A DNA stretch of 23,895 nt from a virus (IMGVR_UViG_3300027771_000101:1-23895), one strand, 5' to 3'; positions 9,341 through 14,039 are shown, counted from the first letter of the stretch. A program made the numbers and translations. Notes: generated from the sequence alone by a model not told the origin.

Positions 9341-9650
9341 AGCTCGATAATTCCTCTAGTGCTTCGTTAATCACATCTTCCAACACTGACTTACATCCTG
9401 CAGTAGTGGTCTCTGATGCGAGAACGGGTGCAATCTTTGATGGCAGTGCTAGTAGCTTACCTTTGAGTGCTACTAGTACACCTTCCCATTCCTTGATAAC
9501 GTCTTCGGTTGGCATTAACCTACCATGTATGGTTTCTAGGTGCAGTTCTGCCACTTCAGCTTCAGCGTTAACTTTACGTGTTCTTGCTTCGTCATAGGTT
9601 GATCCTACTTTAACGCCACCTGTTGATCCTGTGGTCTTTTGATAGGCCAT
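9243..9650 (-). CDS. terS: Terminase small subunit (Nu1-like, no visible HTH)
   Basis: 135 residues starting at the ATG at 9650, supported by GGAG 7 nt upstream. The core (ARTRKVNAEAEVAELHLE, then GRLMPTEDVIKEWEGVLVAL and KLLALPSKIAPVLA) matches the helical central part of Nu1-type small terminases, which bind DNA at the packaging start and load the large subunit. The usual N-terminal winged HTH of lambda Nu1 is not visible; only about 20 Gly/Thr-rich residues precede the helices. The C-terminus is basic (KIKRKSVGRSRKTP) and might contribute to DNA contact. The 3' end overlaps the large subunit gene by 98 nt in a different frame. Confidence 0.8.
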   Translation of the reverse strand: MAYQKTTGSTGGVKVGSTYDEARTRKVNAEAEVAELHLETIHGRLMPTEDVIKEWEGVLVALKGKLLALPSKIAPVLASETTTAGCKSVLEDVINEALEELSSYDPTTDVAEHAESAKAAAKIKRKSVGRSRKTP

Positions 9651-10228
9651 TACTTTACTCCAACAATAGTTGAGTACAATTATACATAATAATCTGATAG
9701 TTACTACGATAAATTAGTTTTTGGTTATTCTGTCACTAAATGAAAACTGTGGTGCGAAATTACCCACGGCTAGACGGCCCCAAAGAACCTATCACTTTTC
9801 AGCCTCACTGATGGCCCTGGGTGCCCTCGCTTGAGCCGCTCTGAGCGTCCCCATACAAAGTGTAGGCATCATTCAATCGCCCCTTACACGGCCTTACAGG
9901 AGGACAAACATTAAATATCACGCATGTTGCATATAAACACTTGGCACAGATCTTGCCAATGATTAGATAAATTCATGCATCGCCTGGACTCCCTCACAAG
10001 CTGCAGGCGTGGCGTATTGCTTGCCCCCTTACGGGTGTATAGTTGGCGGAATTGATCGTGTAACCAACCTCACAGATGCTAGGCATTGTTAGGCGTGTTA
10101 GCCCCCTAGATAATTAAAGGCCTATTGAGTCTGGATTAAGTGGGCGATATGTTGCGGCGTGTGGTTTGCGTGGCGTGTGGGTGCGGCTATGAGTGCTAAT
10201 ACATTGCCCCCGCATAAACTGCAGGCAT
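9651..10228. other. Gene-poor region upstream of terminase; candidate cos/packaging region
   Basis: About 580 bp with no convincing gene, between the accessory operon's terminator and the small terminase gene. In cos phages with GpA-type terminases the cos site usually lies just before this gene, so this is the most likely packaging region; no cohesive-end sequence can be read from one strand of sequence alone. Seen here: C-rich blocks beginning GCCCC at about 9879, 10023, 10101 and 10206, and CTGCAGGC at about 10001 and 10219. A 26-codon minus-strand frame (9872-9792) has a good ribosome site (AAGGGG) but nothing else to support it. Confidence 0.4.
9679..9684 (-). promoter_or_regulatory. Candidate late promoter -10 before the terminase genes
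   Basis: On the minus strand a perfect TATAAT, preceded directly by TG, lies 29 bp before the small terminase start. No good -35 element stands 16-18 bp upstream, so if it works it may need an activator or an extended -10. It is the only clear -10 just upstream of the virion operon. Confidence 0.35.
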
Positions 10229-10250
10229 AAAAAAACCCGCGCTTGGCGGG
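10229..10250 (-). terminator. Rho-independent terminator of the accessory operon
   Basis: On the minus strand CCCGC (10250-10246) pairs with GCGGG (10240-10236) around CAAGC, followed by seven U (10235-10229). It lies 24 bp past the last small gene and ends the 12967-10274 transcription unit before the gene-poor region. Confidence 0.85.
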
Positions 10251-10273
10251 TGTGGGTGTGGTCGTGGGTGTGG

Positions 10274-10375
10274 CTAGCCTATGAGCAAGGCGATACCGAA
10301 ACAAAGCGCGACTGTTACTAATGCGCTACACACTTGAGCTAGTGCGCTTCCATAGATATCATCGTTGCTATACAT
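10274..10375 (-). CDS. 33-residue single-span membrane peptide
   Basis: The short frame starts at ATG 10375 within the last codons of the preceding gene (8-nt overlap) and ends at TAG 10276-10274. A GAGG motif lies 9 nt upstream of the start. The product begins MYSNDDIYGS and continues as one hydrophobic helix (about residues 10-32, ALVTVALCFGIALLIG), so it is a small inner-membrane peptide with a short polar N-terminus. It is the last gene before the operon's terminator. Tight coupling and the membrane helix argue for a real gene; its role is unknown. Confidence 0.6.
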   Translation of the reverse strand: MYSNDDIYGSALAQVCSALVTVALCFGIALLIG

Positions 10376-10565
10376 CGCATTGATCCTCTAAGGCTTCATT
10401 GATCCACGCCATAGCCGTGCAAATATCATCCCACTGGCTATCGTGGTGCTCTATGCCTTCAGGTATAAGCAACTCACGCGCCGCGTGTAAAGCTTCCCAA
10501 ATTAGCGCCTCTGCTTGGTTAGTATCAAAACCCGATAATGGGCCGCTAACTATCGTTTTAGTCAT
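10368..10565 (-). CDS. Small uncharacterised phage protein (65 aa)
   Basis: The start at 10565 is chosen because AGAGGG stands 8 nt upstream; in-frame ATGs further out have no ribosome site. The protein (MTKTIVSGPLSGFDTNQAEA at the start) is acidic and mainly helical, with DDICTAMAWINEAL near the end, a pattern seen in small phage proteins of unknown role. No Cys pair or membrane segment is present. It follows the methyltransferase-like gene by 16 nt and overlaps the 33-codon membrane peptide gene, so it is part of the same operon. Confidence 0.6.
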   Translation of the reverse strand: MTKTIVSGPLSGFDTNQAEALIWEALHAARELLIPEGIEHHDSQWDDICTAMAWINEALEDQCDV

Positions 10566-10581
10566 AGTCAAACCCTCTATA

Positions 10582-11319
10582 TTATACTGCATTGTGTAGC
10601 ATTGCCGCTTCAGCAAACCCGCGCGGCGTTGCGCTTCTTATATTCTTTGTACGTGCCGAGGTGCCGCCAAGCTTCATAGTGGCGGTATTGTACCCGTTCC
10701 CGTGGTATTGTTCGGGATCCACTGGCACCATAGGGGGCATAACAAAACCCCCGCCAACCCATAGGCAAGTTTGCTTCTTGTATGCGTCCCGTGGCGCGAT
10801 ATAGTCAGGGTATAGCGGGTGCATTGCATCGCCTTGCTGAATGTATCCGCCATACTGGTACGGGTGGAAGCGGTGATCTGGCTTCCGCCATTGAGTGGCT
10901 AACACGCTCACTGGATTTTCCACGTAATAAGGTACGCGCAGATCCTCGAATATTTCAGCGCACCATTTAGCATACTTAACCGCTTTAGTCTGGAAGTCAG
11001 GATCTTTTAACGCCTTGCTTTTGAAGTGTGACGCGCCACTGACTGCCATGTCAGTGCAAACGGGAAACGCCATGGCAAAAACCGTATCTAAGGCATAAAA
11101 CGCATTCATTATCGATAGCACTTGCTCACGTTCGTGCAAGTCCGCATTAATGTAGTAAATAGCGCCGCCACTATCAAAGCGCGTGATCTTGCTATCATCG
11201 TGTTGTATGTCGTAACAGTAGCACTGATACCCACGTTCGGCCCATGGGATGCAAGCAACCCCCGTATAATCATACAAAGATAAAACCACTTTGTGATTAT
11301 TAGATTCTAATATATTCAT
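10582..11319 (-). CDS. Divergent C5-cytosine-methyltransferase-like protein
   Basis: 245 residues from the ATG at 11319. That start forms an ATGA overlap with the upstream 54-codon gene and has GGGTGG upstream; a GTG 99 nt earlier is disfavoured because it would run through that gene. Landmarks in Dcm order: motif-I-like SLYDYTGVACIPWAERG (14-30) for the cofactor, then an acidic strand end (CYDIQ); motif-IV-like FPVCTDMAVSGA (85-96) with possible catalytic Cys88; motif-VI-like VENP (133-136); and SATPRGFAEAA (229-239) near the C-terminus. The usual PPCQ is PVCT and ENV is ENP, and the protein is short, so it could modify cytosine in an unusual context, act on nucleotides or be non-catalytic. 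Many phages carry such proteins; the substrate is unknown. Confidence 0.65.
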   Translation of the reverse strand: MNILESNNHKVVLSLYDYTGVACIPWAERGYQCYCYDIQHDDSKITRFDSGGAIYYINADLHEREQVLSIMNAFYALDTVFAMAFPVCTDMAVSGASHFKSKALKDPDFQTKAVKYAKWCAEIFEDLRVPYYVENPVSVLATQWRKPDHRFHPYQYGGYIQQGDAMHPLYPDYIAPRDAYKKQTCLWVGGGFVMPPMVPVDPEQYHGNGYNTATMKLGGTSARTKNIRSATPRGFAEAAMLHNAV

Positions 11320-11480
11320 AGTGCAACCACCCTTTGATTCATTGAGAAATAAAACCACGTTCCCGCATATGCTATCGGCTCTAATAAAACCGCCGTGCGT
11401 GTTGAACGCTTCAACCACTTATTGCCACTGCTATTGAACTCAGCACCAACCTTTACCCGTTTAAACTCTATACGGCGCAT
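11316..11480 (-). CDS. Small basic phage protein (54 aa)
   Basis: A short gene locked between its neighbours: ATG at 11480-11478 overlaps the upstream gene's TAA (TAATG), and its TGA (11318-11316) overlaps the next gene's ATG (ATGA). The product starts MRRIEFKRVKVGAEFNSSGN and continues KWLKRSTRTAVLLEP, then WFYF near the end. The order F-x-R-V-x-V-G-x-x-F, G-N-x-W-x-K-x-S-x-R-T-A, WFYF reads as a compact beta domain, a type I associate with small phage proteins of unknown role. The double overlap is the main evidence that it is translated. Confidence 0.65.
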   Translation of the reverse strand: MRRIEFKRVKVGAEFNSSGNKWLKRSTRTAVLLEPIAYAGTWFYFSMNQRVVAL

Positions 11481-11740
11481 TATAGATCCCCTGCTAAATA
11501 CTGCTTTTGTGCTCTATAGGCCGATATTTCCCATAGCTGGAATATTTTAAACCCGCCGAAATAATCAGCCGTTACACTTGCCACAACATCGGCCCACGTT
11601 TTATCGGTGCGCGAATCATGCCAAGCTAAGAATATTGACCCGTCTGCATTCTGGCACCTGCAAACACACTCCCCATCCCATGGCCCAAAACAATCTATTA
11701 CACTGTTTTGTGTCTCGCTTTTAATGCTTAGATTAGCCAC
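11480..11740 (-). CDS. Uncharacterised phage protein (86 aa)
   Basis: Starts at a GTG (11740) that overlaps the upstream stop as TAGTG; GGGGAGGA stands about 8 nt upstream, a near-ideal ribosome site, which supports GTG. The protein has a Cys-x-Cys-x-Cys cluster within GECVCRCQNADGS, then AWHDSRTDKTWADVVASVTADYFGGFK and an aromatic C-terminal half. The Cys spacing might bind metal but no known zinc motif is recognised. No membrane segment. Fifth-from-last gene of the accessory operon. Confidence 0.6.
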   Translation of the reverse strand: MANLSIKSETQNSVIDCFGPWDGECVCRCQNADGSIFLAWHDSRTDKTWADVVASVTADYFGGFKIFQLWEISAYRAQKQYLAGDL

Positions 11741-11901
11741 TAGTATTCCTCCCCTTCCATTTGTTCCGTTTCCGATTCATGACGCGCCCACAATTGTTCC
11801 CAGTCTGCAGACGTTAACAAGTCCATTATTTCGACTAACTCTAACAACTCAGAGTCGCGCTGCAGTAGCTCAAGATATGTTTTATCAATTAATACTTTCA
11901 T
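11740..11901 (-). CDS. Small acidic uncharacterised protein (53 aa)
   Basis: Starts at ATG 11901, one base past the TAA of the upstream gene (TAACATG), with GGGGTG upstream. An earlier in-frame start would lie inside the upstream gene. The protein is Leu/Glu-rich and probably all helical (YLELLQRDSELLELVEIMDL), ending EQMEGEEY. It resembles small helical adaptor or inhibitor proteins in composition only; no family is recognised. Its last codons supply the ribosome site of the next gene. Confidence 0.6.
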   Translation of the reverse strand: MKVLIDKTYLELLQRDSELLELVEIMDLLTSADWEQLWARHESETEQMEGEEY

Positions 11902-11902
11902 G

Positions 11903-12658
11903 TTACACCCCAACCGTTTCAATTAAGCGCGTATTGAATCGCTTTGACCGCGACCCGTGCACCTCTATAACCACGTTTTGGCTTGCGCCATCGCATAGCT
12001 TGCAATCTAAGCAACTAATGCCGTGGGTATCTGCTTTGCATTGAATTTCACCCTTAATAAGCGAATCACCCGCCATGGCAACGCGGAACGTCATAGCCCC
12101 CATTGATTGATATTTTAACGCCTGCTTTGGGCTATCGGCGCTTACTTGGCAAGTGCTCAAGAATGCAGGATCAAAGCCAATATGATTTATTTGATGAGTG
12201 TAGCCAGTATGGGACGCCGTGTGGGCTAACAATTCAGACCAAACCCCATGTTTAATCGCTGCAGGGTCGCCGTATGATCCCATTCGTAAAGCACGGCCCA
12301 CGATATAACGGGAATGAATGGCGTCATTATAGATAGGATACGCGCCGCGCTTGTATGCCTTAAAAATGGCTAGTGGCGCATGCCCTATATTTACGTAACA
12401 AGCCCCCTTGTTAAAATGCCTATGAATGCAATTGCCACAAATACTATCATCTTGGCCCGTCTTGGCGGCTTCAGTTGGTAGCATATCGGCTCGCATGATC
12501 CATGATTGAATCATATTGCCCGTTTTAGCGTTGTTACTGCTTAGAGTAATGATGGCAACCACGGGGGCACCATCTAAGGCGCTCGGCCCTTCATAGATAA
12601 CAAAACCTTTAACGGGTGCTAGTTTTGTGGGTTTGACCTGCTTTTGTAATAACGTCAT
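11903..12658 (-). CDS. Cys-rich conserved phage protein (DUF7227-like)
   Basis: 251 residues, the largest protein in the accessory operon with the methyltransferase-like one. The start at 12658 has AGGTGA upstream. Its N-terminal half has a pattern I recognise from many phage proteins annotated only as a domain of unknown function: NNAKTGNMIQSWIMRADMLP, then SICGNCIHRH with Cys74, Cys77 and Cys87, then CYVNIGHAPLAIFKAYKRG. The C-terminal part has a second cluster, Cys207, Cys216, Cys219 and Cys222 (SCLDCKLC), and ends with a basic stretch (HGSRSKRFNTR). The two clusters could bind zinc or an iron-sulfur centre; no catalytic signature is certain. Shared operon with the methyltransferase-like gene suggests a role around DNA or host takeover, but this is inference. 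Confidence 0.65.
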   Translation of the reverse strand: MTLLQKQVKPTKLAPVKGFVIYEGPSALDGAPVVAIITLSSNNAKTGNMIQSWIMRADMLPTEAAKTGQDDSICGNCIHRHFNKGACYVNIGHAPLAIFKAYKRGAYPIYNDAIHSRYIVGRALRMGSYGDPAAIKHGVWSELLAHTASHTGYTHQINHIGFDPAFLSTCQVSADSPKQALKYQSMGAMTFRVAMAGDSLIKGEIQCKADTHGISCLDCKLCDGASQNVVIEVHGSRSKRFNTRLIETVGV

Positions 12659-12694
12659 ATTTTCACCTATTTGTGATTATTAATTATGGTTTGA

Positions 12695-12967
12695 TTATTT
12701 AGATACTGAACAAGTGCCAGAAACGCGGATAATATCGGCACGTTCAACGCCTTGCGATATCCAATGCGCTATGCATACGTTTTCGGCGTTGTAGTTAGAT
12801 TCATGCATATTGAAGTTAACTGCAGCACTAACAGCAAATAGGCCTAGTGCAATAATGATCAAAACGCCTAGTACTGCTTTAGCTACAATTAAGCTATTAG
12901 GATTAGCAGCGCGGCGCATTCTATCGGCGCGGCGTAGTTTTATAATGGTGCGGTTTTTATTGCTCAT
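12695..12967 (-). CDS. Small membrane protein (90 aa)
   Basis: First gene of the accessory operon, ATG at 12967 with AAGG about 10 nt upstream. The N-terminal 24 residues are strongly basic (NKNRTIIKLRRADRMRRAANP). A single hydrophobic helix at about 27-50 (LIVAKAVLGVLIIIALGLFA) follows, then a polar C-terminal domain with two cysteines (NVCIAHW and SGTCSVSK) that could pair outside the membrane. The positive-inside rule predicts a cytoplasmic N-terminus and a periplasmic C-terminal domain. No family is recognised; superinfection exclusion or envelope change are options only by analogy. Confidence 0.65.
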   Translation of the reverse strand: MSNKNRTIIKLRRADRMRRAANPNSLIVAKAVLGVLIIIALGLFAVSAAVNFNMHESNYNAENVCIAHWISQGVERADIIRVSGTCSVSK

Positions 12968-13005
12968 AATTCAGGCCTTCTTTGTTTGTTTACTTCAGTA
13001 AGTGG

Positions 13006-13034
13006 ATATTAGCGCCTATTACTAGTTAGTGCAA
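13006..13034 (-). promoter_or_regulatory. Candidate promoter of the accessory operon
   Basis: On the minus strand TTGCAC (13034-13029), a 17-bp spacer, then TAATAT (13011-13006), about 40 bp before the 90-residue membrane protein gene. The boxes are moderate matches to sigma-70; spacing is ideal. A direct repeat TATTAAACAA (13040-13049 and 13052-13061) lies just upstream. Confidence 0.4.
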
Positions 13035-13295
13035 CAAAATATTAAACAAACTATTAAACAAGTCTAAATGAAACGGGGGTGCGCGAATACCACGCAAGAC
13101 AAACAAAAAGCAACATATAAAAACGGGCCATAGTTTTGGGGTATTTATTTTACTATAGGGATTTTAGGTTATTTCAGGCCGATGCCTGGACGAAACGCCC
13201 ATATAGCTGACGCTTAGAGCATTTGGTATATTAGAAGGGGGTAATACTGGTTAAAAAGTGATCAATCGTGCCGCCAAAGTGGCCCAAAAGTGTAT
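13035..13295. other. Gene-free, A-rich region beside the 11-bp repeats
   Basis: No gene seen in about 260 bp. It holds two direct copies of TATTAAACAA with a 12-bp period (13040-13061), an A-rich stretch (about 13030-13125), and a short hairpin CAGGC-CGAT-GCCTG near 13176. An A+T-rich segment beside tandem 11-mers could be a replication origin; nothing in the sequence proves it. Confidence 0.35.
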
Positions 13296-13372
13296 CCGTG
13301 GGATAGCCGTGGGATAGCCGTGGGATAGCCGTGGGATAGCCGCAGTTATGCTGAACTTATACCGTGGGATAG
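13296..13372 (+). repeat. Tandem 11-bp repeat CCGTGGGATAG (4 copies plus 1)
   Basis: Four perfect head-to-tail copies of CCGTGGGATAG occupy 13296-13339 with an 11-bp period, and a fifth perfect copy lies at 13362-13372 after a 22-bp gap. The last copy ends 5 bp before the stop of the gpZ-like gene. The period is close to one helical turn, so bound proteins would line up on one face of DNA. The copies are not self-complementary and form no hairpin. Confidence 0.9.
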
Positions 13373-13376
13373 CCTT

Positions 13377-14039
13377 TCACTTAGCGGTTGCTAAAGCCTT
13401 GCGGACTCGGTTCTTTAGGATTGCAGCACCATACCTAGCGATATAGTTCTTAGCGACAGTATCAATCTTGAATATTCGCTTCTGTGTTCGGCTTCTCTGG
13501 CCCATGAATATAAGCATCTTTAACTTCTTGCCGTCACCAATGCGCTCATACATTCCGTAATTCTTATCGCCTGCTTTCTGACCGCCTGGTGAGCCTATAA
13601 AGAACCTATCTTGATTCTTCCCTGTCATACGCTTTCTGATGTACTTGTTAGCAATGTTACCGTATTTGTTAGTCTTCATTGCTGCAGGGATAACTAAGGT
13701 TCTAGACTTACCAGCGCCTCCAGTTTTACTACTGCGGGGCTTTACTTTTCCACCACGCATAAGGGTCTTCAGGTAAGGTCTGTTTGCTTGGATATAAACT
13801 TCTCCAACCATACGGCGCTTTGTTGCCCTTCTGAACCTAAAAGCCTTCTTGGTAAATGGGGTTGCACCGCCATCGAACTTATCTACTTCTTTTACCGCAA
13901 GCTTCTGCACATTAGCAATAAGCGTGTTTATAGTGAGCATAACAGCAAAAGCAGCCTGTTTCTTTTGGGCACCTAACTGTCTTTCTAGCTTACCTACATC
14001 AAATTCAACTGTAACCATAACCGTGGGATAGCCACTCAC
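13377..14039 (-). CDS. gpZ-like tail/morphogenesis protein, displaced
   Basis: 220 residues, very basic. The pattern (FDVGKLERQLG, AAFAVMLTINTLIANVQ, ATPFTKKAFRFRRATKRRMVGEVYIQ, PYLKTLMRGG, then FFIGSPGG, YGMYERIGDGKKLKMLIFM) fits the minor tail protein Z / phage morphogenesis class found between connector and tail genes. Here it is about 10 kb from the FII-U junction where lambda has Z. The GTG at 14039 overlaps the previous stop as GTGA, which supports it; an ATG at 14018 is the alternative. The N-terminal residues GYPTV are encoded by one copy of the 11-bp repeat, and other copies lie on both sides of the gene. The Z assignment is by pattern and not certain. Confidence 0.6.
   Translation of the reverse strand: MSGYPTVMVTVEFDVGKLERQLGAQKKQAAFAVMLTINTLIANVQKLAVKEVDKFDGGATPFTKKAFRFRRATKRRMVGEVYIQANRPYLKTLMRGGKVKPRSSKTGGAGKSRTLVIPAAMKTNKYGNIANKYIRKRMTGKNQDRFFIGSPGGQKAGDKNYGMYERIGDGKKLKMLIFMGQRSRTQKRIFKIDTVAKNYIARYGAAILKNRVRKALATAK

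Follow-up and report, generated by a model that had tools for sequence, protein, structure and literature searches.

Exchange of DUF7227-like and GP88 genes in a mosaic early operon

Comparisons among phage genomes showed that genes of two function-unknown families, DUF7227-like and GP88, displace one another in place. The DUF7227-like gene studied here encodes a Cys-rich protein of 251 amino acids (aa) and belongs to an operon of eight minus-strand open reading frames (ORFs), running from 12967 to 10274 and several of them overlapping start to stop, on IMGVR_UViG_3300027771_000101, a linear viral contig of 23,895 bases that is referred to below as the window. On balance, we favour with modest confidence the reading that DUF7227-like and GP88 proteins are interchangeable, immediate-early enzymes resembling radical S-adenosylmethionine (SAM) enzymes, which would serve host takeover or counter-defence and are carried in a mosaic operon.

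The exchange was located by blastn between the window and a sister contig, IMGVR_UViG_3300031660_000017 (L153/L154), in which DNA identity around the operon was 85-98%. Homology was lost 5 bp past the gene of a 90-aa membrane protein (mem90) and regained 10 bp before the gene of a 53-aa protein. Between these same two neighbours, the sister contig carried a gene for a 284-aa Pfam GP88 protein (L153 5295..6149; 5.7e-32) in place of the Cys-rich gene. The six small operon genes persisted, and the methyltransferase gene of the operon was missing, with homology ending at 11314 and resuming at 10594 (L153 6759..6776) and just 16 bases left in L153 between the homologous flanks. Early accessory genes are strung together here as a mosaic rather than as a unit with one job, and the set of eight genes is not a conserved system.

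The same pair of families was found to exchange in other phages. In cluster A mycobacteriophages, Severus gp83 (GP88) lies opposite RhynO gp74 (DUF7227-like) in one slot, where 87% identity runs up to 7 and 5 bp ahead of the respective start codons and returns downstream, and Turbido gp94 and BiancaTri92 gp89 (both GP88) share a slot with the DUF7227-like gene of Equemioh13. Podophage contigs carry GP88 (L159-L164) or a DUF7227-like gene (L022/L023) in the same slot by gene order, between divergent terminase genes and primase, the gene names there being read from the sequences. The two families were not found together in the records examined: GP88 was above the cut-off in 0 of 33 contigs with DUF7227-type genes, many of which are fragments, and in 0 of 13 named phages with such genes, and phrog_2554, the family that includes the Cys-rich protein, was found in 0 of 20 GP88 records. 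Carriers of DUF7227, DUF7227-like or GP88 genes include phages of mycobacteria, Gordonia, cyanobacteria, Pseudomonas, Klebsiella, roseobacters and SAR11.

Early position of the slot

Transcription of the phage Kampy at five minutes came largely from genes 82-88 (PMC4626039), and gene 87 of Kampy is a GP88 gene. The early promoter of cluster A phages, Pleft, is situated close to the right end of the genome (PMC6550527), and the DUF7227-like/GP88 slot of these phages adjoins the Pleft position. The DUF7227 gene of P-SSP7 is the first gene in its record. Host takeover, one of the roles that the original prediction had offered for the whole operon, stays plausible for the Cys-rich gene, given the early location of these families in several phages and the five-minute transcription of GP88 in Kampy.

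The Cys-rich protein is predicted to be radical-SAM-like

The Cys-rich protein matched phrog_2554 (3.5e-70 over residues 7-243), which also contains proteins of the Pfam family DUF7227 (PF23872; e.g. PaP1 gp135 and the first gene product of P-SSP7). The Pfam DUF7227 match itself was below the gathering cut-off (19.7 bits, cut-off 27), and the protein is a distant DUF7227 relative. Profile comparison by hhalign gave an E value of 1.6e-5 against one DUF7227 member, and E values of 5.8e-9 and 2e-10 were obtained against an alignment of three members. The window protein and DUF7227 proteins share three N-terminal Cys ending in GCYA/GACYV, the R-x-[GN]-x-x-G-D and YTH motifs, a C-terminal C..C-x2-C-x2-C cluster and HG, whereas the window protein has an extra N-terminal beta region and the spacing CX2CX9C rather than the CX3CX6C of DUF7227. 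DUF7227-like relatives were found in 148 phage records, 171 IMG/VR stretches, six plasmids and four bacterial contigs; the plasmids are cyanobacterial and Methylobacterium ones. No mention of DUF7227 was found in the literature searched.

In an alignment of 29 sequences, C74, C77 and C87 were invariant, as were R125, G127, G130, D131, Y153, T154, H155, C207, C216, C219, C222 and H234. The AlphaFold2 model of the Cys-rich protein was confident (mean predicted local distance difference test, pLDDT, 88.8); in this model the strand 47-56 precedes the three Cys, and the strand 123-129 ends in the R-x-G-x-x-G-D motif. In radical-SAM cores, the cluster loop and the SAM motif are placed likewise after successive strands. 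In VIA-align, the eleven top rows for the model were all radical-SAM enzymes (12 of 29 rows overall), among them QueE, PFL-activase, SuiB, viperin-like, SkfB, RlmN and a sactipeptide maturase. In BFVD the structural matches included DUF7227 proteins, and weaker ones to GP88, Gp37/Gp68 and radical-SAM proteins were also among them. A radical-SAM-like barrel is predicted.

Most likely, the Cys-rich protein would be a standalone radical-SAM-like enzyme with a partial beta/alpha barrel, made soon after infection. The three-Cys site after the first core strand would hold the catalytic [4Fe-4S] cluster, the R-x-G-x-x-G-D site after the second strand would bind SAM, and the four Cys near the C terminus may form a second cluster. 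Because DUF7227-like and GP88 genes occupy the same early slot and displace each other while their neighbours stay, the two proteins probably perform the same step in early infection; we suggest that they modify a molecule of the host or the phage by radical chemistry. The Fe-S/SAM chemistry, the target, the equivalence of function and the role in takeover or counter-defence are what we infer from these observations.

A probable link between the DUF7227-like and GP88 families through DUF7227

GP88 (PF17338, phrog_1617), which is found in cluster A mycobacteriophages and pelagiphages, shares with the DUF7227-like family a three-Cys motif, R-x-N-x-x-S-D and a Y-T motif, in addition to the slot and its early position. 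It differs in its Cys spacing, CX6CX3C. In a Pfam search, the window protein gave no match to GP88. Comparison of the GP88 and DUF7227 profiles gave E values of 8e-4 and 1.3e-4, with control pairs at 0.12 or worse, and PaP1 gp135, a clear DUF7227 protein (1.9e-107), also matched Pfam GP88 at 2.3e-4, just under the cut-off. Homology between DUF7227 and GP88 is supported by these profile scores, which are weak to moderate, and distant homology between DUF7227-like and GP88, with DUF7227 as the bridge, is likely.

DUF5131 (phage Gp37/Gp68, PF07505) has a three-Cys motif ending in CYA, N-x-x-S-D and LTKR in a like order, and its profile aligned with that of GP88 with motifs in register (E 0.014 and 0.04). 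As a relative of DUF7227-like it was rejected, the profile score not being significant. Adjoining the DUF5131 genes in three contigs (L124, L125 and L127) is a protein of 264-371 aa, which may be the three-Cys-motif partner. For QueE and PFL-activating enzyme, which carry the canonical CX3CX2C-type motif, no sequence similarity to the Cys-rich protein was found, and the Cys-rich profile had no hit among PDB sequences.

Evidence against the favoured reading and alternative explanations

Several observations weigh against interchangeable radical-SAM-like enzymes. On the structural side, the top VIA-align rows QueE and PFL-activating enzyme reached Z 4.7 and 4.5 and all rows were at or below 4.7, and at such values (Z < 5) a common barrel architecture may suffice for the score. 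Foldseek of the model against the PDB gave no significant match. Because the canonical CX3CX2C motif is absent from the Cys-rich protein, which has CX2CX9C, and because a Pfam radical-SAM match is absent in the window protein and all 29 relatives (E up to 1), we use the term radical-SAM-like and do not assign the protein to the superfamily. Regarding the link between the families, the direct comparison of DUF7227-like and GP88 profiles was not significant (E 0.18), and neither was that of two enlarged profiles, DUF7227-like plus DUF7227 against GP88 (E 0.41 in local and 0.83 in global mode), the local alignment of which does put the motifs in register. GP88 lacks the C-terminal four-Cys cluster. 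In favour of the link, a motif string matched 94 of 95 DUF7227-like proteins, 20 of 23 GP88 proteins and 1 of 1818 other ORFs (the single hit, L134, is a true DUF7227 protein), but it had been composed after the families had been seen. Among proteins fetched later, it matched 2 of 2 DUF7227 and 9 of 10 DUF7227-like proteins and only 1 of 5 GP88 proteins, because the mycobacteriophage GP88 proteins read YTA; the four in question keep R-x-N-x-x-S-D and Y-T, with YTA instead of YT[KH]. The timing is known for one phage, Kampy, and for GP88 only. Finally, since early phage slots are variable, exchange in place is not proof of equal function.

This last point leads to an alternative that we consider unlikely, in which the slot is a hypervariable early locus where DUF7227-like and GP88 genes arrive independently and differ in function, and one gene per slot explains why they do not co-occur. 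The early ends of phage genomes are variable, and a terminase-based sample agrees with such a locus: 30 of its 34 loci with at least 3 kb upstream had neither DUF7227-like nor GP88 genes, and in the remaining 4 GP88 was present, but in another layout (same-strand). Intended as an unbiased tally of the slot, this sample thus speaks neither for nor against exclusivity of the two families. The non-significant direct score between the families also fits independent arrival. However, at least three phage groups show exchange of this very pair, the DUF7227 profile bridge and the shared motif spacing connect the two families, and GP88 is among the BFVD structural matches of the DUF7227-like model.

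We regard as improbable a reading without radical chemistry, in which the Cys-rich protein would be a barrel that binds zinc or else a binding protein, such as one that inhibits a host factor. Its Cys spacing is non-canonical, two Cys groups of this kind are also seen in zinc sites, and the Pfam radical-SAM match is missing, all of which such a protein would explain; on the other hand, three Cys after a core strand followed by a conserved R-x-G-x-x-G-D after the next is the layout of the radical-SAM core, and radical-SAM enzymes are the top structural rows. A joint module of the Cys-rich protein and the methyltransferase for DNA modification or anti-restriction is very unlikely. In its favour, the two genes share an operon here, a PxC motif and ENP are retained in the methyltransferase, and divergent Dcm-like genes occur near some Cys-rich loci; against it, there was no close co-occurrence either way, and in the sister phage one gene is absent and the other replaced.

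Beyond the favoured reading of interchangeable early enzymes, DUF7227, DUF7227-like and GP88 may constitute one unrecognised immediate-early radical-SAM-like class with non-canonical three-Cys motifs and the same takeover or counter-defence reaction, which would be why they displace one another in place; we hold this broader proposal to be possible but somewhat doubtful. For two function-unknown families in hundreds of sequenced phages, a shared role that can be tested and a prediction of their chemistry are now at hand, and the natural swaps between sister mycobacteriophages, which grow on a laboratory strain, are a direct setting for cross-complementation.

The Cys-rich and methyltransferase genes do not travel together

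The original prediction had placed the Cys-rich and methyltransferase genes in one unit, for which it held a role in DNA modification or anti-restriction to be plausible, and proposed that their co-occurrence in other phages be checked. Among 43 records that carry the Cys-rich gene, none had a close methyltransferase homolog, and six gave weak matches (22-28 bits) to the wider superfamily. Conversely, none of 15 methyltransferase-bearing records showed the Cys-rich domain, and seven weak matches there fell in another part of the phrog_2554 profile. Divergent Dcm-like genes were near 7 of 91 Cys-rich loci, and there is therefore no sign of a fixed pair. Because co-occurrence fails in both directions and the sister contig lacks one gene and replaces the other, the two do not make a two-gene DNA-modification system, and this candidate was rejected.

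The methyltransferase itself belongs to a common family, phrog_757 (profile match 4.9e-69), present in 1541 phage records and often annotated as cytosine methyltransferase. In Pfam, no match to PF00145 (DNA C5-methyltransferase) was found for the window methyltransferase. It is ~47% identical to E. coli phage homologs, and its candidate catalytic residues C88 and E134 are invariant in the family alignment. Motif IV reads F-P-V-C-T and motif VI E-N-P; the FPVCT subgroup, with Val for Pro before the candidate catalytic Cys, includes the window methyltransferase and five other sequences (L028-L032), whereas the other phage Dcm-like methyltransferases have FPPCT. The subgroup thus has Val-Cys instead of the Pro-Cys dipeptide. 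CmoX, a phage cytosine carboxymethyltransferase (PMC12783734), was considered as a putative relative; its SPPC motif and Arg350 imply a longer protein. AlphaFold2 modelled the window methyltransferase poorly (pLDDT 62.5), and the folds retrieved with this model were only generic Rossmann ones, for the most part dehydrogenases; the model was set aside.

Operon layout and neighbouring genes

The eight-gene unit was recovered as described, including its two membrane peptides with one helix each (Table 1). The six small genes are real genes, because their ratios of nonsynonymous to synonymous substitution rates (dN/dS) between the window and the sister contig were 0.06-0.25. For the 86-aa protein, no relative was found in phage records, and the sole IMG/VR relative found was the sister contig. 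The unit had also been credited with its own promoter and terminator. A terminator-like hairpin with a T-run was located, but the promoter was not supported, the scan being at chance level: 10 sigma-70-like sites were counted in 9600..13600, where chance would give 8.6, and the upstream gap (12968..13376) had none on its minus strand.

Table 1 Coordinates of the operon genes, the exchange slot and the terminator-like site in the window
Feature	Position	Strand	Evidence
mem90, 90-aa one-helix membrane protein, first gene of the unit	12695..12967	-	phrog_19839 9.6e-9; 92% identical in L153; dN/dS 0.21; maximum Kyte-Doolittle 2.8
Exchange slot	11911..12690	-	blastn: 12690 = L153 5278; 11911 = L153 6162
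251-aa Cys-rich DUF7227-like / phrog_2554 protein	11903..12658	-	phrog_2554 3.5e-70; AlphaFold2 pLDDT 88.8
53-aa protein, function not assigned	11740..11901	-	94% identical in L153; dN/dS 0.13
86-aa orphan protein	11480..11740	-	dN/dS 0.25
54-aa protein	11316..11480	-	weak phrog_1648 (7e-4); 96% identical in L153; dN/dS 0.06
245-aa Dcm-like methyltransferase (phrog_757)	10582..11319	-	profile match 4.9e-69; absent from sister phage
65-aa protein, function not assigned	10368..10565	-	78% identical in L153; dN/dS 0.09
33-aa one-helix membrane peptide	10274..10375	-	70% identical in L153; maximum Kyte-Doolittle 2.5; dN/dS 0.21
Intrinsic-terminator-like hairpin, then T-run	10251..10235	-	sequence scan

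The unit had been placed between replication and packaging modules. The terminase/packaging module does lie on its downstream side; upstream, a minor-tail-like gene (13377..14039; phrog_1924) intervenes before primase and helicase. This gene is only 52% identical in the sister phage, in which most neighbours are 88-98% identical, and a homolog of it sits just upstream of the DUF7227-like gene of another contig, L089. The window had no near match among phage or plasmid records, and an Rfam search of it gave no match. Ahead of the small terminase gene, ~580 bases (9651..10227) carry no convincing gene, and a cos or terminase-binding region there is a guess. Just downstream of the minor-tail-like gene, a perfect 11-bp tandem repeat, CCGTGGGATAG, is present in 4.3 copies (13296..13342), and related repeats are also present in the sister phage.

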